A program made the position numbers and the translations under genes. Of a stretch of DNA of 64,000 bases, positions 43,563-55,163 are shown piece after piece (position 1 is the first letter of the stretch; the number at the start of each line of letters is the position of its first letter). The notes under the pieces were generated by a model. The model was not told the DNA's origin and searched no databases. It saw nothing but the letters and a program-made list of their open reading frames with translations. The DNA comes from Halioglobus japonicus (GTDB taxonomy: Bacteria > Pseudomonadota > Gammaproteobacteria > Pseudomonadales > Halieaceae), in NCBI RefSeq assembly GCF_001983995.1, contig NZ_CP019450.1:372001-436000 (forward strand). Direction: 5' to 3'.

Positions 43563-46094
43563 TCAGGATGCCGTTGCCAGCACATCAGCCGGATCGCATT
43601 TTTCTTCGGTGGTGGCCGGGCGAATCTGCTCGCGCTCGCGCACGAATACCACGTTGTCGTCAGTCGCATCTGAATTCACAAAGTGATTGAAGCGCCCCAC
43701 CTTCTCGGGGTCTTCAATGGTGGTCTTCCACTCACACTGGTAGGTGCCCACTACCGCAGCCATCTGCTGCTCCAGCTCTTCGGCAATGCCGAGGCTGTCT
43801 TCAATAATGACTTTCTGCAGGTATTCGAGGCCCCCCTCCATGTTTTCCATCCACACGGATGTGCGCTGCAGCCGATCCGCCGTGCGCACATAAAACATAA
43901 AGAATCGATCGATGTAGCGAATCAGGGTTGCGTCGTCGAGGTCTGTCGCAAACAGGTCGGCGTGACGTGGCTTCATCCCGCCGTTGCCGCAAACGTACAG
44001 GTTCCAGCCTTTTTCAGTCGCAATGACACCGACATCCTTACACTGTGCTTCCGCGCACTCACGCGTACAGCCAGACACCGCCATTTTCAGTTTGTGGGGT
44101 GAGCGCAGGCCCTTGTAACGATTTTCCAGATCAATCGCCATACCCACGGAATCCTGCACACCGTAGCGACACCAGGTTGAGCCGACGCAGGACTTCACCG
44201 TACGCAGTGATTTGCCATAGGCGTGGCCAGTTTCAAAGCCGGCGTCGATCAACTCACCCCAGATCGCCGGCAGCTGTTCCATACGGGCGCCAAACAGGTC
44301 TACGCGTTGGCCGCCCGTGATCTTGGTGTAAAGGTCGTATTTCTTGGCAACCTCGCCCAGCACAATCAGTTTGTCCGGGGTAATTTCGCCACCCGGCACA
44401 CGCGGCACGACGGAGTAAGTGCCGTCCTTTTGCATGTTGGCGAGGAACCGGTCGTTAGTGTCCTGCAGGCCCTGGTGTTCCTTCTCCAGCACGTAGTCGT
44501 TCCAGCAGGTTGCGAGAATCGACGCGACCGCCGGCTTACAAATGTCACAGCCCTGGCCTTTACCGTGCTTGGTCAGCAGCTCATCGAAGCTACGGATGTT
44601 CTCGACCCGAATAAGGCTGTAGAGATCCTGGCGTGTGTAGGCAAAGTGCTCACAAATATCCGTGTTCACTTCGTAGCCAAGGTTCTCCAGCTCCGCGTTC
44701 ATGACCTGGGTGACAAGCGCCGTACAACCGCCGCAGCCAGTCGCAGCGGTGGTGTCTGCTTTCAAATCCCCCATGGTGCAACAACCGCCTGCAACCGCCG
44801 CTACCAGATCGCCTTTACTCACGTTATTACACGAACAGATCGTTGCAGTGTCAGGCAGAGCGTCGACGCCAAGCGTCGAGGCAGCGCCGTCGACGCTGGG
44901 GAGTATCATCGCATCGGGTTGGTCAGGCAGCTCAATCTTGTTGAGCGCGAACTGCAGCAGGTTACCGTATTCTTCGGCATCGCCCACGAGCACCGCACCC
45001 AGCAGATGCTTCTGGTCCGCTGACACCACAATTTTTTTATACACCTGCTCTACTTCGTTGATGTAGGTGTAGTTGAGCGCCCCTTCGGTGTTGCCGTGAG
45101 CATCACCGACCGAGGCGACATCCACGCCCATCAGCTTGAGCTTGGTCGACATATCCGCGCCATTGAATTCGGTATCGCCGGTGCCGCACAAGTGCTCAGC
45201 CGCCACCTGCGCCATGGTATTACCCGGAGCGATCAGACCATAGATACGGCCATTCCAGAGGGCGTTCTCGCCCACGGCGTAAACGTCCTCATCGGAGGTC
45301 TGGCAGAAGTTGTTGATCACAATACCCCCGCGCTCGCCAATCGCGAGTCCACTGGAACGGGCCAACTCGTCCTGGGGTCGAATGCCGGCTGAAAACACGA
45401 TCAGATCCGTATTGAGCTCTGAGTCATCCGCGAAGCACATCTTGTGCACGGCACCGTCTCCGTCGGTAATCTGCTGGGTATTCTTGCTGGTGTGTACCGA
45501 AACACCCAGTTCTTCAATCTTGCGCTTCAGCAACGCACCGCCGCCGTCGTCGACCTGCACCGCCATTAATCGGGGCGCGAACTCCACCACGTGGGTTTGC
45601 AGGCCAAGATCGTGGAGCGCCTTGGCGGCCTCCAGACCCAGCAAACCGCCGCCAACCACGGTCCCTACCCTGGCGCTCTTGGAAGCCTCGGTAATGGCCT
45701 CGAGATCCTCAATCGTGCGATAGACAAAGCAGTTATCGCGGTCGTGGCCCGGCACTGGCGGCACAAAGGGGAACGAGCCCGTCGCCAGCACCAGTTTGTC
45801 GTAGGCCACTGTCAGCCCTTTCTCTGAAGTGACGGTCTTGGCGGCGAGATCAACCGCGATGACCTTATCACCCACGTGGCAGGTAATACCGTGTTGCTCG
45901 TAGAAACCGGGCACAACCATGTTGAGCGGCTCGGCGCTACGCTCTTCGAACCAGCCGGTCAGGTGGACCCGGTCATAGGCCACCCGGGGTTCCTCGCCAA
46001 ATACGGTGATGTCCCACGCGCCCGCGTCGACCACCTGTTCTACCAGCCGATGCCCCACGGGCCCGTTACCTACTACTACCAGTCGTTGTGTCAT
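43563..46094 (-). CDS. nirB: NADH-dependent nitrite reductase large subunit
   Basis: An 843-residue siroheme enzyme reducing nitrite to ammonium with NADH. The N-terminal FAD/NAD domain has GNGPVGHRLVEQ and the NAD site VGGGLLGLEAAKAL. A BFD-like [2Fe-2S] domain follows (TICSCNNVSKGDLVAAV...ATGCGGC). The C-terminal siroheme/[4Fe-4S] domain carries SGCTRECAEAQCKD and YVCGNGGMKPR. It is the first gene of the operon nirB-nirD-nasA-dmsBC-type fusion. A leader of about 236 bases lies between the proposed sigma-54 start and the ATG; it contains an ANTAR-type hairpin. Confidence 0.96.
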   Translation of the reverse strand: MTQRLVVVGNGPVGHRLVEQVVDAGAWDITVFGEEPRVAYDRVHLTGWFEERSAEPLNMVVPGFYEQHGITCHVGDKVIAVDLAAKTVTSEKGLTVAYDKLVLATGSFPFVPPVPGHDRDNCFVYRTIEDLEAITEASKSARVGTVVGGGLLGLEAAKALHDLGLQTHVVEFAPRLMAVQVDDGGGALLKRKIEELGVSVHTSKNTQQITDGDGAVHKMCFADDSELNTDLIVFSAGIRPQDELARSSGLAIGERGGIVINNFCQTSDEDVYAVGENALWNGRIYGLIAPGNTMAQVAAEHLCGTGDTEFNGADMSTKLKLMGVDVASVGDAHGNTEGALNYTYINEVEQVYKKIVVSADQKHLLGAVLVGDAEEYGNLLQFALNKIELPDQPDAMILPSVDGAASTLGVDALPDTATICSCNNVSKGDLVAAVAGGCCTMGDLKADTTAATGCGGCTALVTQVMNAELENLGYEVNTDICEHFAYTRQDLYSLIRVENIRSFDELLTKHGKGQGCDICKPAVASILATCWNDYVLEKEHQGLQDTNDRFLANMQKDGTYSVVPRVPGGEITPDKLIVLGEVAKKYDLYTKITGGQRVDLFGARMEQLPAIWGELIDAGFETGHAYGKSLRTVKSCVGSTWCRYGVQDSVGMAIDLENRYKGLRSPHKLKMAVSGCTRECAEAQCKDVGVIATEKGWNLYVCGNGGMKPRHADLFATDLDDATLIRYIDRFFMFYVRTADRLQRTSVWMENMEGGLEYLQKVIIEDSLGIAEELEQQMAAVVGTYQCEWKTTIEDPEKVGRFNHFVNSDATDDNVVFVREREQIRPATTEEKCDPADVLATAS

Positions 46095-46196: not shown

Positions 46197-46203
46197 AATA
46201 GGC

Positions 46204-46242
46204 GGTGCATGCGCACCTTTTCCGCGCATCCACCGTTGGAGC
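46204..46242 (-). promoter_or_regulatory. nirB leader: ANTAR-type hairpin overlapping a strong second hairpin
   Basis: On the minus strand, from 46242 to 46226, GCUCC and GGA-U-GC close a six-base loop AACGGU (A at 1, G at 4), as in ANTAR-protein targets. Its loop end and 3' arm are also part of GGUGgAUGCGC pairing with GCGCAUgCACC (46234-46204), ten pairs with one mismatch. The two structures exclude each other. A T-run comes only 14-18 bases after the second hairpin, so its terminator role is less clear than in the other leaders. Confidence 0.5.
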
Positions 46243-46327
46243 AAATTCCTGATTTTGGTGCGTGAATTTCCCGGAATGCCCAGAAACCGTGCGGTTTGAG
46301 GGTCTGGTGTTGGAAAATCCACACGTT

Positions 46328-46343
46328 TGGCATAGTCATTGCA
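46328..46343 (+). promoter_or_regulatory. Sigma-54 promoter of the nitrate transporter gene
   Basis: TGGCATAGTCATTGCA fits TGGCAYR-N4-TTGCW at every fixed position. The expected start is near 46354, just before the leader hairpin and 88 bases ahead of the ATG. Confidence 0.75.
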
Positions 46344-46356
46344 AAACCCATGCCTA
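46341..46356 (-). promoter_or_regulatory. Sigma-54 promoter of the nirB operon
   Basis: On the minus strand AGGCATGGGTTTTGCA matches the -24/-12 consensus except for its first base. It overlaps the rightward sigma-54 promoter by three bases at their -12 elements, so the two cannot easily be occupied together. The expected start is near 46330. Confidence 0.6.
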
Positions 46357-46406
46357 CTCGGCCTAACGGCGGGTCGAGCCGCAACAAACTTTCCTCGATG
46401 TTTTTT
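46357..46406 (+). promoter_or_regulatory. Transporter gene leader: ANTAR hairpin with overlapping terminator
   Basis: CTCGGCCT (46357-46364) and GGGTCGAG (46371-46378) form eight pairs (two G-U) around the loop AACGGC, with A at 1 and G at 4. The same GTCGAG (46373-46378) can instead pair with CTCGAT (46394-46399), followed by G and six T, an intrinsic terminator. Binding of NasT to the first hairpin would prevent the terminator. The ribosome site AAGGAGG follows at about 46428. Confidence 0.75.
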
Positions 46407-46441
46407 CGACTATCCTTTTGCGCTATCAAGGAGGCTATGCC

Positions 46442-47908
46442 ATGAGCAGCCCCGTCAAAGTCCTGGACTTTGCCAACCCCTCGATCCGAACCCTGCACCT
46501 GACCTGGGTCGCATTCTTTATCACTTTTGTTGTGTGGTTCAGCCACGCACCGCTGATGGCTCATATCAAAGAAGCCTTCGACCTGACCAATGCTCAGGTC
46601 AAAGCGCTGCTCATGCTCAATGTGGCCCTGACCATTCCCGCGCGGATTGTGGTCGGCATGTTGGTGGACAGGTACGGCCCACGCACCGTGTTCAGCGTGC
46701 TGCTCATTGCGTCTTCATTCTTCTGCTGGGGCTTTGCATTTGCCGACAGCTACGAAACCCTGGCGCTGTTTCGCTTCCTCGGCGGCTTCGTGGGCGCAGG
46801 TTTTGTGATTGGTATCCGCATGGTGAGCGAGTGGTTCCCCGCACGGCAGGTAGGAATGGCCCAGGGCATTTACGGCGGATGGGGTAACTTTGGCTCCGCC
46901 GCCGCAGCCATGTCACTCCCCACGGTGGCCCTCCTGATAGGCGGAGACGATGGCTGGCGTTATGCCATCGCCATGGCTGGCCTGCTGGCGTTCTGTTACG
47001 GGATCTTCTATTTCATCAAGGCCCGCAATACGCCCAAGGGTTCCACCTACTTCAAGCCCAAGCGCACCGGCGGCCTGGAAGTAAGCTCGTATCGCGACCT
47101 GTACTTTTACATCGGCATGACCATACCCCTGTACCTGGCACTGGCACTGCTGACCTGGCGTCTGTCGCCCACCAACCTGGCCCTGCTGACCGAAACCGCG
47201 GTGGTCTCCATCTACGTTATCCTGATTGCCCTGTTCATATTTCAGGTCAGCCAGATCTGGAAGGTGAACAAGGACCACTTGCGTACCGGCGTACCGGAAA
47301 TTGAACAGTACAAGTTCAAACAGGTCGCGGCGCTGGACTGGGCGTACTTCGTCACCTTCGGCTCAGAGCTGGCGGTGGTGTCGATGTTGCCGCTGTTCTT
47401 TATGGAGACCTTTGAACTGGACGCAGTCAAAGCGGGTTTGCTAGCCTCAGGCTTTGCGTTCATGAACCTGGTAGCGCGACCTTCAGGCGGTTATTTCTCT
47501 GATCGATTCGGGCGTAAACGCTCCCTCTCTTTTCTGATTGCCGGCCTGGCGGTGGGCTACCTCATCATGGCCCAGGTGGATGCAACCTGGCTCATTCCAC
47601 TGGCAGTGATCGCCACTATGTGCTGCTCCTTTTTTGTTCAGGCGGGCGAGGGGGCAGTGTTCGCCATGGTGCCTCTGATTAAACGCCGCATGACAGGACA
47701 GATTGCCGGCATGGCAGGTGCGTTTGGCAATGTCGGCGCGGTAACCTATCTGACCATACTATCGTTCGTCGACGCATCGACCTTCTTCACGATCATCGCC
47801 GCCAGTGCAGCGGTGTGCTTTGTCATCGTACAATTCATCGACGAACCGGCGGGACAAATGCAGGAAGTCCTGCCAGACGGTACCGTGCAATTGATCGACG
47901 TGGCCTAA
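46442..47908 (+). CDS. NarK/NasA-type nitrate/nitrite MFS transporter
   Basis: A 488-residue MFS protein with 12 helices. Nitrate-porter signatures are visible: [39 protein letters not shown], the first nitrate signature [17 protein letters not shown], and the second, [13 protein letters not shown], near residue 430. It imports nitrate for the cytosolic reductase. A strong AGGAGG lies eight bases before the ATG at 46442. It is the first gene of the rightward unit, with the PP2C/kinase gene nine bases behind it, and is controlled by the sigma-54 promoter and antitermination leader described above. Confidence 0.93.
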
Positions 47909-47917
47909 AGGGATGGA

Positions 47918-49675
47918 ATGACAGCGCCCGATACGAACCAGGTAGAGCACCTGAATGGTAATCTGACCCTCTCGGTGGGCCAGTATTCCGTGGCCGGGCG
48001 CAAGCCGGAAAATGAGGATGCCATCGGCATTCGCATTCCGGAGGGCAACCTGCTCACCACCAAGGGCGCTGTCGCTATTATCGCTGATGGTGTCAGCGCC
48101 GCAGAGGCGGGCAAGGAAGCCAGCCAGACGTCGGTGACGAATTTCCTGACCGATTATTTTTCCACCCCCGAGTCCTGGAGTGTCAAAAAGTCAGCCCAGC
48201 AGGTTCTGACCGCCCTCAACCGCTGGTTATACAGCCGCGGCAGGGGCTTTGCTGACAGTACCCGCGGCTACGTCACCACTTTCAGCGCACTCGTATTGAA
48301 GTCGCAGCAAGCGCACTTGTTTCACGCCGGCGACAGTCGAATTTATCGGCTGCGCGATGGCACCCTGGAGCAGATAACCGATGACCACAGTACCAGGGTG
48401 TCGGAAAAACAGAGCTACCTGAGCCGCGCCCTGGGCCTGGATGTCCACCTGGAAATGGATTATCGCAGCCTCAGCATTGTGCCGGGGGACCTGTTCCTGC
48501 TTAGCACAGATGGCATTCACGATATTCTTGGCCGCGATCGCATGCAGTACATGCTGCAGTCGCTGCCGAGTGACCTCAGCCACGCATGCCAGGCCCTGGC
48601 CGAAGCGGCGTTTGAAGCTGGCAGCACCGACAACCTGAGCTGTCAGCTAATGCGCGTCGACCAACTGCCGGCGGCAGATATCAACGACGTGGTCAAGCGA
48701 CTGACCGAACTGCGGTTTCCACCGTTTCTTGAAGAGGGGATGATACTCGACGGGCTGCGCATCATCCGCGAGATGCACGCCAGCAATCGCAGCCAGGTGT
48801 ATCACGTCGAAGATGTCGATTCCGGCGAGCAGTTCTGCATGAAGACACCCTCGGTCAATTTCGAGGACGATGCTGCCTACATTGAACGCTTCGTGATGGA
48901 AAGCTGGATTGGCAGCCGCATCAACAGCCCGTATGTCGTGAGAGTGGCGGAGCCGCCCCGGCCCAAATCCTGTCTCTATTACCTGACCGAGTACGTACCA
49001 AGTATTACGCTAGCGAGGTGGATGCTCGAGCACCCGCGCCCCGCTGTCGAAGAAGCGGTTTACCTGATCGACCAGATTGCCAAGGGTATTCGTGCCTTCC
49101 ATCGTCGAGAAACCCTTCACCAGGATATAAAACCAGACAACATCCTCATCGATCGGCATGGCCAGATAAAAATTATCGACTTTGGCTCCTGCCACGCCGC
49201 AGGCATTAGCGAGATCAACACGCCCATTCAGCGCGATATAGCCCTGGGCACACAGAGCTACGCTGCACCGGAATACACTGTGGCCCGAAAGCCAAATTAC
49301 CAGGCGGACCTGTTCTCCCTCGCCGTCATCAGCTACGAAATGCTCACCTCCGAGTTGCCCTTCAACGGCAAGCTCGAGCACTGCAAAAGCCAGCGCGACT
49401 TTCTGAACACCCGCTATAGCGAAAGCTACCGGATCAACCCCCTGGTTCCCCACTGGATCGACGGCGCCCTGCGCAAAGGCCTGCGCTTCCAGCCAGAGCG
49501 CCGCCATGGCGATGTCATGGAATTCGCCTACGAGCTAAAACATCCCAATCCCCAATACCTGGAATACCGCCAGCGACCGCTGCTGGAACGCGATCCTGTC
49601 AAAGCCTGGAAGGTCATTGCAGCTATACTTGCCCTGACGCAACTCGCTACACTGTTGGCGTGGTTGAACGGATAA
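47918..49675 (+). CDS. Membrane-tethered PP2C phosphatase / Ser-Thr kinase fusion
   Basis: A 585-residue bifunctional signalling protein. Residues about 10-245 are a PP2C-type phosphatase ([52 protein letters not shown]). Residues about 260-545 are a Hanks-type kinase: the catalytic loop is [12 protein letters not shown] (HQD instead of HRD), the metal site is IIDFGSCH, and the APE motif is YAAPEY. A C-terminal helix ([18 protein letters not shown]) anchors it in the membrane. It starts nine bases after the nitrate transporter gene, so the transporter or another part of nitrate uptake is the likely target. Confidence 0.88.
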
Positions 49676-49700
49676 CCTTAATAACAACAACGGGATCAGC

Positions 49701-50144
49701 ATGACCTACAACTGTCAGTGCCCTTGTGGTGCTACCCGCCTGACGGTGCAAGGCAAACCCATTTCAAGATTCATCTGCCACTGCACAATATGTCAGCAAA
49801 AGTACGAGGCGCCTTTCGCCGACGTCACGCTGTTCAAGTTAAGTGCCGTTGAGCCCCCGGCGGACGATGCAATAGTGTTCGGCAAATACAAGCGCTTTGG
49901 TGCAGTGGAGCGCGGCTTTTGCGCCAGCTGTGACAAGCCCATACTCGCCAGGACCGGGAGTAGCCAAAAGGATTTTGCGTTTATCGGGACGCGCAACTAC
50001 CTGCAGCCAGAACAATTGCCGCCCGCCGAGATGCACGTGTTTTACGGTACGCGCGTGGCTGACGTCGATGATGACCTGCCCAAATACAGCAACGGCATCA
50101 GCAGTCGCTATGCCTTCATCAAGCGGCTGTTGAAAGCTGGCTGA
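49701..50144 (+). CDS. GFA/CENP-V family zinc-binding protein
   Basis: A 147-residue GFA-fold protein with cysteine sites CQCPCGATRL near residue 5, FICHCTICQQKY near 24, and GFCASCDKPI near 72. It starts 25 bp after the kinase/phosphatase gene and may be the third gene of the nitrate transporter unit. Its substrate is unknown. It is not a close copy of the other GFA protein at 21.5 kb, since the spacing between motifs differs. Confidence 0.82.
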   Translation: MTYNCQCPCGATRLTVQGKPISRFICHCTICQQKYEAPFADVTLFKLSAVEPPADDAIVFGKYKRFGAVERGFCASCDKPILARTGSSQKDFAFIGTRNYLQPEQLPPAEMHVFYGTRVADVDDDLPKYSNGISSRYAFIKRLLKAG

Positions 50145-50201
50145 CACGCCACAGGCTGGAGTGGATTTTTTAGTTTAAGCTCACAAGACCGCGGCCAAAT
50201 C

Positions 50202-50218
50202 GGTGCAGGAGATGCACC
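50202..50218. promoter_or_regulatory. NtrC-type half-site pair before the porin promoter
   Basis: GGTGCA-N5-TGCACC is a perfect dyad made of the two NtrC half-sites, but in everted order relative to the usual TGCACC-N5-GGTGCA. It lies about 65-80 bp behind the sigma-54 element, in a position suited to an enhancer-binding protein. Confidence 0.4.
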
Positions 50219-50283
50219 AAGAGCGCACACTTGACGTAGTGAGATTGCCGAGAACCCAGCATTTACAAGGGTTTGAGTCAGGT

Positions 50284-50299
50284 TGGCCCGATGCTTGCT
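50284..50299 (+). promoter_or_regulatory. Sigma-54 promoter of the porin gene
   Basis: TGGCCCGATGCTTGCT matches TGGCACG-N4-TTGCW with one mismatch (C for A at position 5). The start would be near 50310, about 100 bases ahead of the ATG. Confidence 0.65.
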
Positions 50300-50333
50300 T
50301 TGTCACAGCCGTTCCAACAATTTGACTTTATCT

Positions 50334-50398
50334 GGCAATGAAGCCTGTGCGCACAACGGGAGTAATCCCGCTGCGGCGCACAGGCTTTCGTCGTTTTT
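50334..50398 (+). promoter_or_regulatory. Porin leader: ANTAR hairpin with overlapping terminator
   Basis: GGC-AATGAA-GCC (50334-50345) has a six-base loop with A at 1 and G at 4; the stem is short, with one further C-G pair beyond a mismatch. Its 3' arm lies inside AGCCTGTGCGC (50342-50352), which pairs perfectly over 11 bp with GCGCACAGGCT (50376-50386), followed by TTCGTCGTTTTT. The terminator is very strong and sits 14 bp before the start codon, so transcription of the porin must depend on antitermination. A nested hairpin (CGGGA-GTAA-TCCCG) lies in its loop. Confidence 0.72.
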
Positions 50399-50411
50399 AA
50401 GGAGTAGAAAC

Positions 50412-51647
50412 ATGGCAGTATCTTTTCACAGGCGTAGTATCCTGGCGGCCGCCGTTGTCGGTGCAATGACCACCCCGGCATATGCACAAGAGGCAGGATC
50501 CGCGTCACTTACCGATATGTTTACTGAAGGCAAGGCGTCGTTTAACTTCCGCTACCGCTACGAATTCGTCGACCAGGACGGCTTCAGCAAAGACGCCAAG
50601 GCCTCAACCCTGCGCTCGCGGCTGACCTTTGCCTCTGCACAATATAAAGGCTTGTCCTTCCTGACCGAGTTTGACGATGTTACCGCTATTGGCAGCGACA
50701 ATTACAACTCAACGGCCAACGGCAATACCGAATACCCAGTGGTGGCAGACCCTGAAGGCACCGAGGTAAACCAGGTATGGGCTAAATACGCCAGCGGCGG
50801 GGCGTCAGGCACCTACGGTCGGCAACGCATTCTCCACGGCAGCCAGCGCTTTATCGGCGGCGTAGCCTGGCGCCAGAACGAGCAGACCTACGACGGCTTC
50901 CGCGCCATGTACAAGAACGATGCGCTGACCCTCGACTATGCCTATGTGTATAACATCAACCGGCTCTTCGGCCCCGACGACGGACCGGTCCAGCCAGCCA
51001 ATCATCACGGCGAAAACCACTTTGCACGCGGCGATTGGAAAATCGGCGACGGCCACACGCTGACAGGTTTCTACTACGGCATTGATATCGATTTTGACGA
51101 GGACTACGCAGCCGGCAAAACTGTCGGTAATTCCTCGGACACCTACGGGGTGGAGTATGCGGGCAGCTTTGGCCCGGTTGGGCTGAAAGCGGCCTGGGCA
51201 ACCCAGTCTGACGCCGGTGACAGCCCGCTGGACTATGACGCCGACTACTACATGGTGGAAGGCGCCTTTGGATTCAGCGGCCTCAAGGCCACCGCAGGCT
51301 ATGAGGTATTGGGCGGCGACAACGGCGTCGGCTTCAAAACGCCTTACGCGACCCTGCACAAATTCCAGGGCTGGGCCGACTTGTTCCTGATCACTCCCGG
51401 CGACGGGATCGAAGATATCTACGTCAGCCTTGCGGGCAAAATTGGCCCGGTGAAGGTGGCCGGCACCTACCACGACTTCAGCGCCGAGGATTCCTCTGCA
51501 GACTACGGCTCCGAAATCGACCTGGTGGGCACCTATGTATTGAACAAGAATTGGAACTTCCAGCTCAAGTACGCGAGCTTCTCGTCTGATTCAGATGCAT
51601 ATGCCGATACCGATAAGGTCTGGATGACGGTAAACTTCAAGATTTGA
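50412..51647 (+). CDS. Outer membrane porin of the nitrate locus
   Basis: A 411-residue beta-barrel protein with a signal peptide (ILAAAVVGAMTTPAYAQE), the N-terminal FNFRYRYEFVDQDGFSKDAKA, alternating amphipathic strands (GTYGRQRILHGSQRFIGGVAWRQNEQTYDGF), and a C-terminal strand ending KVWMTVNFKI. It resembles alginate-export-like/OprD-like porins. Its placement between the nitrate transporter unit and nasT-nasS, and its sigma-54 promoter with terminator leader, suggest that it lets nitrate cross the outer membrane. The ATG at 50412 is preceded by AAGGAG. Confidence 0.85.
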   Translation: MAVSFHRRSILAAAVVGAMTTPAYAQEAGSASLTDMFTEGKASFNFRYRYEFVDQDGFSKDAKASTLRSRLTFASAQYKGLSFLTEFDDVTAIGSDNYNSTANGNTEYPVVADPEGTEVNQVWAKYASGGASGTYGRQRILHGSQRFIGGVAWRQNEQTYDGFRAMYKNDALTLDYAYVYNINRLFGPDDGPVQPANHHGENHFARGDWKIGDGHTLTGFYYGIDIDFDEDYAAGKTVGNSSDTYGVEYAGSFGPVGLKAAWATQSDAGDSPLDYDADYYMVEGAFGFSGLKATAGYEVLGGDNGVGFKTPYATLHKFQGWADLFLITPGDGIEDIYVSLAGKIGPVKVAGTYHDFSAEDSSADYGSEIDLVGTYVLNKNWNFQLKYASFSSDSDAYADTDKVWMTVNFKI

Positions 51648-51660
51648 TCCTGGAGATACC

Positions 51661-51690
51661 GGCGCCGGCGAGCAATGTCTCGCCGGCGCC
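51661..51690 (+). terminator. 12-bp perfect hairpin between porin and nasT
   Basis: GGCGCCGGCGAG and CTCGCCGGCGCC are perfect complements around CAATGT, starting 13 bp after the porin stop. No T-run follows, so it may protect the porin mRNA 3' end or reduce read-through into nasT rather than fully terminate. Confidence 0.6.
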
Positions 51691-51699
51691 TGCCTGCCC

Positions 51700-52320
51700 T
51701 TGTCCACACACCATCCATCAGGTGCCGTACTCAGAGTGATCCTCGTCGACGACGACCGCTCCCGCGCCACCAGCGTAGAAAGCAAACTGAGAGACGTCGG
51801 CTTCGATGTGCTCTCCGTCATTCCTACAGCATCGGGCCTGTTGTACCAGATGGCACAACAGGAACCCGATGTGGTTATTATTGCCCTCGATTCACCCGAC
51901 CGGGATGTCCTCGAGTCACTCAGCATTGCCTCCAGTCACAACCCAAGACCCGTAGTCATGTTCTCCGAGTCCGGCGACCAGGGTTTTATTACTGACGCCA
52001 TCCGTGCCGGCGTCACCGCATACCAGGCACAGGATATCAGTGCCGAGCGAGTGCGCGCGGCCATCGATATCGCCGTGGCCCAGTTTTCGGCGTTCAACAA
52101 CCTGCGCGAGGAACTCGACGAGACACGGCGCCAGTTAGAAGAACGCAAACTGGTGGAAAAGGCCAAAGGTTTGTTGATGTCGGTACACAAGGTGGATGAG
52201 GAAGAGGCTTTCTCTACATTACGCAAGCTCGCCATGGACAAAAATCGCACCCTGGGCGAAGTCGCCAAGGAAGTGATTGATATCCTCGAGCGCAACCCGA
52301 TAAAAGGACAAAGCCGATGA
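51700..52320 (+). CDS. nasT: ANTAR-domain antitermination regulator of nitrate assimilation
   Basis: A 206-residue response-regulator-like protein. The receiver-like domain starts LRVILVDDDRSRATSVESKL, with VVIIALDSPDRDV (a phosphoacceptor-like Asp). The C-terminal ANTAR RNA-binding domain is RQLEERKLVEKAKGLLMSVH to EEAFSTLRKLAMDKNRTLGE. NasT proteins bind paired-hairpin leader RNAs and block terminators; NasS holds them inactive without nitrate. The start at 51700 is TTG; no ATG precedes the domain. The stop overlaps the nasS ATG as ATGA. The leaders at 46204-46242, 46357-46406, 50334-50398 and 53683-53753 are its likely targets. Confidence 0.92.
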   Translation: MSTHHPSGAVLRVILVDDDRSRATSVESKLRDVGFDVLSVIPTASGLLYQMAQQEPDVVIIALDSPDRDVLESLSIASSHNPRPVVMFSESGDQGFITDAIRAGVTAYQAQDISAERVRAAIDIAVAQFSAFNNLREELDETRRQLEERKLVEKAKGLLMSVHKVDEEEAFSTLRKLAMDKNRTLGEVAKEVIDILERNPIKGQSR

Positions 52321-53498
52321 GCGATGTACAACGCCTGTCACCGGCGGAGAAACAACACCTCAGTCTGGGCTTCCTCAAGCTGACCGACAGCGCGCCGCTC
52401 ATCATGGCGCAGGAACTGGGCTATTACGAAAAGTACGGACTGAGCGTCGACCTGCAGCGCGAAGTCTCATGGGCCAACGTGCGCGATAAGCTGGTAGCCG
52501 GCGTACTGGACGCTGCGCAGATGCTGTCACCGCTGCCACTGGCCACGTCACTGGGCGTGGGCGGAATGCGCGCAGAGGTGATCACCGGCCTCGCCCTGAG
52601 CCTGAATGGCAATGCCATTACCGTCGGCCAACGCCTGGCTAATGAGATCGTCGAGCACGGCGGCGACCCAGCGGCAGGTGCCTGCAGCACCGCCACCGCA
52701 TTCAAGCACTACCTCGATGCGGGCGACCGGCAGATTACCCTGGCATCGGCGCACACTTTCTCCTGTCATACCCTGCTGCTCCGCAACTGGCTGCGCGCCG
52801 GCGGGATCGACCCGGAACGCGATGTGCACATTATTGTCCTGCCACCGGAGCAAATGGTCGACAGCCTCGCCCGGGGCATTATTGATGGCTTTTGTGTGGG
52901 CGAGCCCTGGAACAGCATGGCCGTGCAGTATGGTATCGGCGCTGTCCAGGCGACTGGCTACCAGATCTGGAATAACGGCGTGGAGAAGGTGCTCGGCGTC
53001 ACCGAGAGCTGGCATCAGAACCATCCCGGGACCCATTTACGGCTGCGCCTGGCCCTGATGGAAACCTGTGCATGGTTGGCTCACCCGTTTAACCGTGAGC
53101 AGACGGTATCGCTACTGTCTGAACCGCAATACCTGGACCTGGCGCCGGAGGTGCTGCGACCGGCCCTGACCGGCCAGTTCGCCTTCAGCAAAGGTGAGGC
53201 CGAGGTAGACCTGCCGCACTTCCATGTGTTCGGGCGATTTCAGGCGGGCTTTCCCTGGCGCTCGGATGGCGAGTGGTTGCTCAACCAGGTGGGCGAACTC
53301 ATGGGCAAGACGCTGCCACCGGAAGATGTGAAAGCCCTGGTCCAGCGCACGTTCCGCACGGATCTTTACCGCGAAGCCGCACGCCACCTGTCACTGCCCT
53401 GCCCCAGCCAGGACTACAAACCCATAGGCGAGCACAGCGAAGCCTGGGAAATAGAACCAGGCATCGAGCTCGGGCCCGACCTGATGCTCGCCTGTTGA
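52317..53498 (+). CDS. nasS: Cytosolic nitrate sensor partner of NasT
   Basis: A 393-residue protein of the NrtA/CmpA fold (LSLGFLKLTDSAPLIMAQELGYYEKYGL, DAAQMLSPLPLATSLGVGG, FCVGEPWNSMAVQYGIG, FGRFQAGFPWRSDGEWLL) but without a signal peptide, as expected for NasS, which binds nitrate in the cytosol and then releases NasT. It overlaps nasT by four bases, so translation is coupled. It is paralogous to the downstream periplasmic binding protein. Confidence 0.92.
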   Translation: MSDVQRLSPAEKQHLSLGFLKLTDSAPLIMAQELGYYEKYGLSVDLQREVSWANVRDKLVAGVLDAAQMLSPLPLATSLGVGGMRAEVITGLALSLNGNAITVGQRLANEIVEHGGDPAAGACSTATAFKHYLDAGDRQITLASAHTFSCHTLLLRNWLRAGGIDPERDVHIIVLPPEQMVDSLARGIIDGFCVGEPWNSMAVQYGIGAVQATGYQIWNNGVEKVLGVTESWHQNHPGTHLRLRLALMETCAWLAHPFNREQTVSLLSEPQYLDLAPEVLRPALTGQFAFSKGEAEVDLPHFHVFGRFQAGFPWRSDGEWLLNQVGELMGKTLPPEDVKALVQRTFRTDLYREAARHLSLPCPSQDYKPIGEHSEAWEIEPGIELGPDLMLAC

Positions 53499-53520
53499 GC
53501 GCCCGAAAATAGCGCCCTGG

Positions 53521-53537
53521 CGTGCCACATTGGTGCG
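53521..53537. promoter_or_regulatory. Weak NtrC-like site before nrtA
   Basis: CGTGCCACATTGGTGCG keeps one good NtrC half-site (TGGTGC) and a poor partner. It is about 100 bp behind the sigma-54-like element at 53625 and may be one of several half-sites. Confidence 0.3.
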
Positions 53538-53624
53538 CCAGCGACTTTCCAGCCCACCCCCCCACGCCTGCATTCACCCGCCTAATCTCCCTAAACCTCT
53601 GAATCTATTGAGGTTATATAAAGT

Positions 53625-53640
53625 TGGCGCGGCTTTTGTA
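53625..53640 (+). promoter_or_regulatory. Sigma-54-like promoter of the nitrate ABC transporter
   Basis: TGGCGCGGCTTTTGTA agrees with TGGCACG-N4-TTGCA except at position 5 and at the -12 C. The start would be near 53652, ahead of the leader hairpins. The -12 mismatch makes this the weakest of the four sigma-54 calls. Confidence 0.45.
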
Positions 53641-53682
53641 ATCCCTACCCAAGCAACACCATGACATCGCGAACCTCTCCTT

Positions 53683-53753
53683 GAGCATCGACGCTCTCCC
53701 TCCCTGGCTTGACCGCCGGTGCGTGAGGGGAGCGTTTGCATGTTTTCGTTTTT
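53683..53753 (+). promoter_or_regulatory. nrtA leader: ANTAR hairpin with overlapping terminator
   Basis: GAGC-ATCGAC-GCTC (53683-53696) is a four-pair hairpin whose hexaloop has A at 1 and G at 4. Its 3' arm lies within CGCTCTCC (53692-53699), which pairs with GGGGAGCG (53727-53734) over eight bases, one of them G-U. TTTGCATGTTTTCGTTTTT follows directly. Thus NasT-bound RNA would read through, and free RNA would terminate before nrtA. Confidence 0.7.
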
Positions 53754-53771: not shown

Positions 53772-55163
53772 ATGATTCGCAAAGCAATCTTCTCCATGAC
53801 GCGCCGCCGCTTTGGCGCGCTCGCCCTGGGCTCTATGCTCAGCGCTGCATTACCCTTTTCCGCATCCGCCGAACTGGGCGAGCCGGAGAAGGATGAGCTG
53901 AAGTTCGGCTTTATCAAACTCACTGACATGGCACCGCTGGCGGTCGCCTACGAAAATGGTTACTTCGAAGACGAAGGCCTGTATGTCACCCTCGAGGCGC
54001 AGGCCAACTGGAAAGTGCTGCTGGACGGCGTCATCGACGGCCAGCTCGACGGCGCCCACATGCTGGCCGGCCAGCCCCTGGCGGCGACCATTGGCTTCGG
54101 CACCAAGGCACACATCGTGACGCCTTTTTCCATGGACCTGAACGGCAATGGCATTACCGTCTCCAACGCGGTGTGGAAGGAGATGAAAAAGAATATTCCG
54201 CACGAAAACGGTAAACCCGTACACCCGATCAAAGCCGACTACCTGAAACCGGTTGTCGAAAGCTATATCGACGAGGGCAAGCCCTTTAATATGGGCATGG
54301 TATTCCCGGTCTCCACGCATAACTACGAGCTACGCTACTGGCTGGCCGCTGGCGGCATCCACCCCGGCTATTATGCACCCCACAAGGGCGACATCTCCGG
54401 CCAGATCGACGCCGAGGCGCTGCTGTCAGTCACACCCCCACCGCAAATGCCCGCCACTCTGGAAGCAGGCACAATCTACGGCTATTGCGTGGGTGAGCCC
54501 TGGAACCAGCAGGCGGTGTTCAAAGGTATTGGCGTACCGGTCATCACCGACTACGAGATCTGGAAGAACAACCCCGAGAAAGTATTCGGCCTGAACAAGG
54601 AATTCACCGAGAAGTATCCCAACACCTCCGTGCGTATCGTCAAAGCACTGTTGCGCGCCGCCAAGTGGCTGGACGAAAACGACAACGCCAATCGGCCTGA
54701 AGCAGTGGAGATTCTGTCCCGCTCCGAGTACGTGGGCGCAGACTACGACGTGATCGCCAACTCCATGACCGGCACCTTTGAGTACGAGAAGGGCGACAAG
54801 CGCGAAATCCCCGATTTCAACGTGTTTTTCCGCTACAACGCGACCTACCCCTATTACTCCGACGCCATCTGGTACCTCACCCAGATGCGCCGCTGGGGTC
54901 AGATATCCGAGCCCAAGTCTGACGACTGGTACTTTGATGTCGCCAAAAGCGTCTACCGTCCGGACATCTACCAGGCCGCCGCCGAGGCGCTTATCGAGGA
55001 AGGCGAAATGGACGCTGCAGAGTTTCCTGCCTTCGCCACCGAGACTGGCTTCAAACCGGCCCAGACTGATTTTATCGACGGCAAAGTCTACGACGGCTCC
55101 AAGCCCAATGCTTATCTGGAGCAGTTCCCGATCGGCCTGAAAGGCACCGACGTCATCCAGTAA
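53772..55163 (+). CDS. nrtA: Nitrate ABC transporter substrate-binding protein
   Basis: A 463-residue periplasmic binding protein of the NrtA/CmpA/NasF group. The N-terminus [20 protein letters not shown] with an AxA-type end (SASAE) is a twin-arginine signal (TRRRFG). The binding fold shows [63 protein letters not shown] and [20 protein letters not shown]. The ligand is nitrate, by context and close resemblance to the NasS next door. The ATG at 53772 is preceded by AAGGGGT. It begins a three-gene ABC transporter unit. Confidence 0.92.

Follow-up and report, generated by a model that had tools for sequence, protein, structure and literature searches.

Leader hairpins read by proteins with an ANTAR domain are known from several bacteria. 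In Paracoccus denitrificans (NasS–NasT and nasA; PMC3795266, PMC5424462) and Bradyrhizobium (NasT; PMC6759348), a nasT–nasS pair occurs together with leader hairpins at nitrate genes, and antitermination has been proposed; the Paracoccus nasA leader has two such hairpins, HI and HII. The targets of EutV, NasR and AmiR also carry two hairpins, with six-base loops (hexaloops) that have A at position 1 and G at position 4 (A1/G4), overlapping a terminator (PMC3369931), and the Klebsiella nasF leader sets a nitrogen lock (Ntr) and a nitrate lock (NasR, a direct nitrate sensor with two target hairpins) on one operon (PMC5424462). Here we describe a related arrangement in Halioglobus japonicus, in a stretch of 64,000 nucleotides (nt) of contig NZ_CP019450.1 (‘the window’; coordinates count from its first letter), in which leaders before nirB, a narK-type gene, a porin gene and nrtA share the nasT–nasS pair, the A1/G4 hexaloops, an overlap of hairpin and terminator that is clear for the porin leader and partial at most for the others, and the probable double lock with these systems. 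They differ in having one hairpin per leader, in the sigma-54-like elements that precede the leaders, in including narK, porin and nrtA as targets and, in one clade of relatives, in having A or C at loop base 4 of the terminator hairpin. Sigma-54 serves at nasF as well.

From the sequence, we consider it probable that the four leaders make up a nitrate-assimilation regulon with sigma-54 initiation and NasT hexaloop antitermination as two locks. Under nitrogen limitation, sigma-54 RNA polymerase would start at the −24/−12 elements, presumably activated by NtrC. Without nitrate, NasS would hold NasT (known for Paracoccus and assumed here), the leader terminator would fold and transcription would stop; with nitrate, NasT would be freed and would grip the hexaloop hairpin, with its A1 and G4. 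As the 3′ arm of the hairpin is also the 5′ arm of the terminator, the two should be mutually exclusive (clearly so for the porin leader, plausibly for nrtA and nirB), and a NasT-bound leader would let the gene be read. We infer NasT binding, the nitrate response and the role of NtrC. The two regulatory genes lie in the middle of the cluster, as the original prediction had said: nasT (51700..52320, plus strand) encodes a receiver-like domain and an ANTAR domain (PF03861), with Glu at EutV position 160 and Phe at position 164 (numbering transferred by alignment to EutV 6wsh), and overlaps nasS (52317..53498, plus strand), whose product, the presumed nitrate sensor, is an NrtA-like binding protein with about 35% identity to NrtA over most of its length. 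The pair spans 51700–53498, and NasT is the sole ANTAR match, over the cut-off, in the 4.1-Mb genome.

Each of the four genes is preceded by a sigma-54-like element in the expected −24/−12 place (with GT at −12 for nrtA), and by a hexaloop with A1 and G4 at the places given in the original prediction (narK AACGGC, porin AATGAA, nrtA ATCGAC and nirB AACGGT). Eight sites in the window match TTGGCACGNNNNTTGC with at most two mismatches, and four of these eight best sites precede the four genes. We took the best-scoring upstream site of each leader and derived start sites from sigma-54 spacing. The porin element TTGGCCCGATGCTTGC (50283..50298, plus strand) is the only one-mismatch match in the window and is conserved in relatives. 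The others have two mismatches: the narK element TTGGCATAGTCATTGC (46327..46342, plus strand; predicted start near 46354), nine related genomes also having a sigma-54-like element before narK; the nirB element TAGGCATGGGTTTTGC (46341..46356, minus strand), which adjoins the narK element in back-to-back orientation, with sites 237–271 nt before nirB in G002 and G014 too; and the nrtA element TTGGCGCGGCTTTTGT (53624..53639, plus strand), which has GT and not GC at −12, this dinucleotide being GT or GA in all 15 nrtA leaders listed from family genomes whose NasT has Glu160.

The relatives were surveyed by searching 120 of 140 genomes of the family, some of them incomplete assemblies, for nrtA, narK, nirB, ANTAR and porin. 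Judged by NasT, the closest relatives with a name belong to Seongchinamella, Mangrovimicrobium, Parahaliea and Halioglobus, of which the NCBI taxonomy places the first two in Halieaceae. An ANTAR match was present in 25 of the 120 genomes: 22 encode NasT, one (G023) a NasR-type protein, its NIT domain recognized by eye, and two (G008 and G093) other ANTAR regulators. In G023 (L041/L101), the NIT–ANTAR protein stands in place of NasT, and a two-hairpin leader precedes nrtA.

The porin leader looks to be a clear terminator/anti-terminator switch, and for this gene the predicted antitermination is well grounded. Its mini-hairpin, GGC AATGAA GCC (50334..50345, plus strand; loop 50337–50342), is followed by an intrinsic terminator (50340..50398, plus strand; fold z −4.86) with a U-rich tail to 50398, and the terminator's 5′ arm consists of the 3′ arm of the mini-hairpin and loop bases 4–6. 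This sharing of an arm had been predicted, and double changes in relatives at 7 of the 13 predicted terminator pairs bear it out; the stem of the mini-hairpin itself is nearly invariant, hence shows no covariation. A porin match was present in 54 of the 120 family genomes, and 30 porin loci were compared (among the 22 NasT genomes, G077 had no porin match, and the comparison was confined to porins other than the weak or partial ones of G094 and G106). The motif GGY-A-N5-GCC was present at 19/19 loci of NasT genomes and at 0/11 loci of genomes without NasT. A strict script test, which asked for hairpin and terminator together, found 11 of the 19 and one false A1 loop (G007) among the 11 others; the Fisher p of 0.018 for this test ignores shared descent and is not taken as proof.

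At nrtA, antitermination is likely, to judge from the sequence. The mini-hairpin GAGC ATCGAC GCTC (53683..53696, plus strand; loop 53687–53692) faces a competing helix in which its 3′ arm pairs with GAGGGGAGCGT (53691..53735, plus strand; fold z −2.41), with a loose U-tract to 53752. This type of hairpin, which precedes nirB in four family genomes, was paired in 17/17 leaders (13 nrtA and 4 nirB), with 68/68 cells pairing (as high in 2/500 shuffles), and had A1 and G4 in the nrtA leaders of 15/15 listed genomes with a Glu160 NasT. In the minimum-energy fold of the window's nrtA leader (53662–53752), an upstream stretch at about 53662–53680 pairs with the 3′ arm that competes with the hairpin, possibly a third state in this model.

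For nirB, antitermination is possible. What argues for it, weakly, is a block, CTCCAAYGGTGGATGCGC, conserved amid otherwise diverged nirB leaders of G000, G002 and G014, in which the hairpin is invariant except for one loop base. The 3-bp mini-hairpin, TCC AACGGT GGA (46229..46240, minus strand; loop 46237–46232), gives part of its length to a predicted competing helix (46203..46235, minus strand) with no adjacent U-run; an alternative script assigned the same arm a different, longer-range partner, and the fold z from the hairpin on was −1.01. For both nrtA and nirB, the predicted sharing of an arm with a terminator holds in part: there is a competing helix, with a poor U-tract. A further nirB candidate, CCA AACGTG TGG, resembling the first (P1) hairpin of two-hairpin leaders, was rejected by eye: the matching G002 sequence seems not to form it.

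The narK leader supports a recognition hairpin only, and the terminator switch cannot apply to it as the sequence is read here. Its 8-bp hairpin with loop AACGGC (46357..46378, plus strand; loop 46365–46370) is the only one of the four to stand out in its own leader, with 2/2,000 dinucleotide shuffles as good. Double changes were found at 4/6 consensus pairs across six genomes, with an invariant loop on a varying stem, and the loop starts 20–22 nt after the −12 element in 5/6 genomes (35 nt in G009). No terminator-like structure was found after the hairpin (fold z +0.26). The lone hairpin, which is of the first type in two-hairpin leaders, may recruit NasT for translation, for RNA stability or for a later terminator; ANTAR RNAs with translational control have been reported in actinobacteria (PMC8164766), and this is one option for narK.

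Across the family genomes, the distribution of the hairpins supports the view that they follow NasT. The AACGGC hairpin was present before narK in 6/7 NasT genomes (G000, G002, G009, G021, G064 and G076; absent in G027) and absent in 3/3 genomes that have a sigma-54 narK and no ANTAR match (G109, G113 and G119), as well as at eight further narK loci (L053–L060). Fisher p was 0.033 for sigma-54 narK only and 0.0004 for all narK; both values ignore shared descent and are not proof. Upstream of narK, seven of these loci from NasT-less genomes (L053–L059) have in common a block resembling CATGATCTACATCAA, which suggests FNR-type control.

Several results weigh against a common two-lock regulon. 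At up to three mismatches, the window holds 74 matches to TTGGCACGNNNNTTGC, 82.7 being expected, which is chance level, and the NtrC motif TGCACC-N5-GGTGCA at up to three mismatches is not enriched (40 in the window, 46 expected). The nrtA and porin hairpins alone are not above chance (100/2,000 and 154/2,000 dinucleotide shuffles of the leaders as good, respectively), and neither is the AACGGT hairpin of nirB, the best-scoring hairpin of that leader being a different one (530/2,000). Double changes in the nrtA-type hairpin affect 1/4 pairs, no more than in shuffles (477/500); neither the nrtA nor the nirB leaders have a proper U-tract; and narK, without a terminator, is left unexplained by antitermination. 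Although G027 encodes NasT, such a hairpin precedes neither narK nor nirB there, the three NasT-less genomes with a sigma-54 narK are incomplete assemblies (87–89%), and the orthology of the porins is uncertain in genomes that lack NasT. A general scan added little: it gave 3 sigma-70 promoters, with 7.0 expected, and, allowing loops of 3–8 only, 18 simple terminators, with 14.7 expected, none of which lies in the four leaders.

The case for the porin and nrtA hairpins is made by their support in relatives and not by shuffles of the leaders. Covariation in relatives was seen for the narK hairpin and the porin terminator, but not for the porin mini-hairpin, and for the nrtA-type hairpin only at shuffle level. 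The prediction of joint NtrC and NasT control stands in part. On the NasT side, NasT is the sole ANTAR protein and the hairpins track it in the family; NtrC sites are not enriched, nirB is weak and narK lacks the switch. NtrC control would follow from the sigma-54 sites and from precedent.

It might be argued that the hairpins are merely parts of ordinary terminators or of sigma-54 leader sequence and that NasT acts elsewhere. In the porin leader, loop bases 4–6 and the 3′ arm also form an arm of the terminator, which could explain why they are conserved, and the action of NasT on the leaders is itself a prediction. We consider this very improbable, given that the narK hairpin stands without a terminator and keeps its loop while its stem varies, that the 11 porin loci from NasT-less genomes lack the motif and that, as described below, loop base 4 differs where NasT lacks Glu160, even though either base, G or A, could pair in the terminator.

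The second hairpin of described ANTAR target RNAs is missing here, as the original prediction had suspected. Requiring an A1/G4 hexaloop with at least three pairs, we found a second hairpin in 0/37 family leaders (13 nrtA, 14 porin, 6 narK and 4 nirB), among them the narK, porin and nrtA leaders of the window; the set consists of leaders other than those of NasTs without Glu160, of G023, G027, G094 and NasT-less genomes, and of nirB in G000, G002 and G014. Shuffles give 0.18 second hairpins over 37 leaders, so absence by itself is not below chance. When the test was relaxed slightly, requiring A1 and leaving base 4 free, a first-hairpin candidate was found at 6/8 sites of one NasT branch (12 NasTs; support 100/100 in an unrooted tree) and at 9/9 sites of loci of the Rfam narK RNA, RF03032, discussed below, together 15/17; two sites were kept apart from these 17, L216 (where the hairpin found is of the first type) and position 1014 of L225 (chance-like). 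In three further families, the looser test yielded a single weak 3-bp candidate (L206) over 12 sites. At NasT position 177 (EutV numbering), Arg or Lys is common in the two-hairpin branch and Thr or Ser in the other Glu160 NasTs.

The leaders could instead hold a second, unusual recognition hairpin (with a loop of other than six bases or a two-pair stem) that the scans missed, so that the two-hairpin model would stand. Ahead of the hairpin, several nrtA leaders do have a short stretch in common, around CACATCGC, and the L206 candidate points the same way. This seems unlikely to us, set against 0/37 in the family and 15/17 in the two-hairpin group by the slightly looser test, and against the 5/6 narK leaders in which at most 6–8 nt separate the upper stem from base +10 after the −12 element. 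Published work counts against a single sufficient hairpin, in that EutV needs both (PMC3369931, PMC8934654) and that NasR requires about 12 µM before it binds one alone (PMC7496416). The EutV structure paper leaves open why ANTAR systems need two (PMC8934654), and the one-hairpin leaders of four families offer a ready test.

The narK hairpin may also link the window to RF03032, which is listed just as cis-regulatory; the narK RNA was reportedly described by Weinberg and others in 2017. At curated cut-offs, Rfam gave no match in the window. A sub-threshold match covers 46329..46388 (plus strand) at 19.6 bits, the gathering cut-off being 43.2, which alone is noise level, as two other places in the genome score higher, with 24.4 and 20.2 bits. 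In the model alignment, the window's narK leader has the sigma-54-like element and, at similar spacing, the AACGGC hairpin that we read in the RF03032 consensus, and the unpaired 3′ part of that consensus, ACGACAAAGACGUCGC, contains CGAC AAAGAC GUCG, a second A1/G4 hexaloop hairpin. Matches at E ≤ 0.001 were found in 12/274 gammaproteobacterial genomes, of which 11 have an ANTAR match (exception G241), compared with 87/274 overall (Fisher p 2e-5, which ignores shared descent and is not proof). All hits of the 11 genomes lie within 10.5 kb of an ANTAR gene, and within 0.3 kb in six genomes. In 6/11 regions (L232–L242), the second hairpin overlaps a U-tailed terminator, at nine sites; the same scan gave no site in L237–L239, L241 and L242. 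The RF03032 stretch of L148 (G308) shows both hairpins and a U-run.

RF03032 therefore looks like a two-hairpin ANTAR target together with its sigma-54 promoter, as far as sequence can tell, and the logic of promoter and hairpin proposed for the window would also explain the Rfam narK RNA. The first-hairpin loop begins 20–24 nt after the −12 element at 7/9 sites, and the narK hairpin of the window has the position of the first hairpin in most of them; the sites add a second hairpin (mostly with loop AAAGGC) inside a terminator, whereas the window's narK leader has neither. That just 2 of the 12 genomes exceed the Rfam cut-off counts against this assignment. The ANTAR link would give RF03032 a regulator and a signal. 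Literature searches on the narK RNA and RF03032, in a collection without the original description, returned nothing relevant.

A last line of evidence ties the loops to NasT itself. EutV contacts G4 through Arg142, Lys149 and Glu160, and Tyr164 stacks on it (PMC8934654). We aligned 47 NasTs (22 from the family and, out of 90 further genomes of the order that gave a match, the 25 best-scoring): 42 have Glu160, and the five exceptions, all Halieaceae, have Arg (G015 and G059), Ser (G024 and G106) or Gln (G013). A scan that left the identity of the loop bases free, but required six of them, a U-tailed terminator overlapping the hairpin and a sigma-54-like site ahead of it, gave A1/G4 in 21/22 hits near nasT in other families (the remaining CGGTTG looks like chance) and in 9/9 hits at RF03032 loci. 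In the non-Glu160 clade, 7/7 hits had A1, and base 4 was A in six of them and C in one. The scan had no hit in 8/23 order-level regions, nor in L231. By genome, readable leader hairpins had G4 in 32/32 with Glu160 (17 family and 15 order) and lacked G4 at the terminator hairpin in 4/4 without it; in the fifth, G106, the leaders lie at contig ends. The Fisher p of 1.5e-5 came from provisional counts of 4 and 33, superseded by 4 and 32, and ignores shared descent. Since base 4 departs from G, in the leaders read, just where NasT lacks Glu160, the loops appear tied to NasT. The nrtA leader of G024 (L036) has two hexaloop hairpins, AACAAC and ATCAGC, both with A4.

Weighing against a functional link, the five non-Glu160 NasTs form one branch (support 100/99, unrooted tree), so the joint change is one evolutionary event, and its support is the number of differing leaders together with the published contact, not the p-value. 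Some upstream candidates in the clade (L227, L228 and L230) also retain G4: TGGT AAAGCC GCCA at nrtA of G059, with a GU-rich counterpart in G015 that has no G–C pairs, and GGCGAC AGGGAC GTCGCC at the porin of G013. Should these be genuine first hairpins, NasT of the clade might recognize G4 in one hairpin and A4 in the other; the candidates may also be chance. One lineage could have drifted in both residue 160 and base 4 without any functional connection. To this clade accident, for which one event suffices, we give a minor though real chance, for the following reasons: Glu160 is kept in the 42 other aligned NasTs and, by eye, in 11/11 ANTAR proteins of RF03032 genomes; EutV E160 hydrogen-bonds G4, and E160A costs 60-fold in binding (PMC8934654); a G-to-A change at loop position 4 lowered induction (PMC3369931); and all seven terminator hairpins that the scan found in the clade differ from G.

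Tentatively, and with confidence just short of even, we propose both that one Halieaceae clade carries a natural re-coding (NasT without Glu160, A or C at base 4, likely an orthogonal pair) and that a single hairpin suffices for ANTAR control in Halieaceae and three further families, at narK even without a terminator. The joint difference would supply a rule for specificity and perhaps an antitermination switch of the orthogonal kind. The ANTAR link to RF03032 and the residue-160/base-4 change are each offered as new.

On the minus strand of the cluster lie nirB (nitrite reductase large subunit, 43563..46094; TIGR02374 and NF011565, over the cut-off), nirD and a nitrate-reductase-like gene. 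The plus strand has, in order, narK (nitrate/nitrite transporter type, 46442..47908; TIGR00886, over the cut-off), a phosphatase–kinase gene, a small gene, the outer-membrane porin (Opr-like, 50412..51647; NF033923 at 29.9 bits, under the cut-off of 150), nasT, nasS, nrtA (nitrate-type ABC transporter binding protein, 53772..55163; an SsuA/Nrt-type family match, under the cut-off), nrtB and nrtD, the last two being names assigned in this analysis; nrtA, nrtB and nrtD stay adjacent in relatives. The gene behind narK (47918–49675) encodes a fused PP2C phosphatase–Ser/Thr kinase, a possible regulator of the NarK-type transporter, and adjoins narK in Parahaliea as well (L017–L019).

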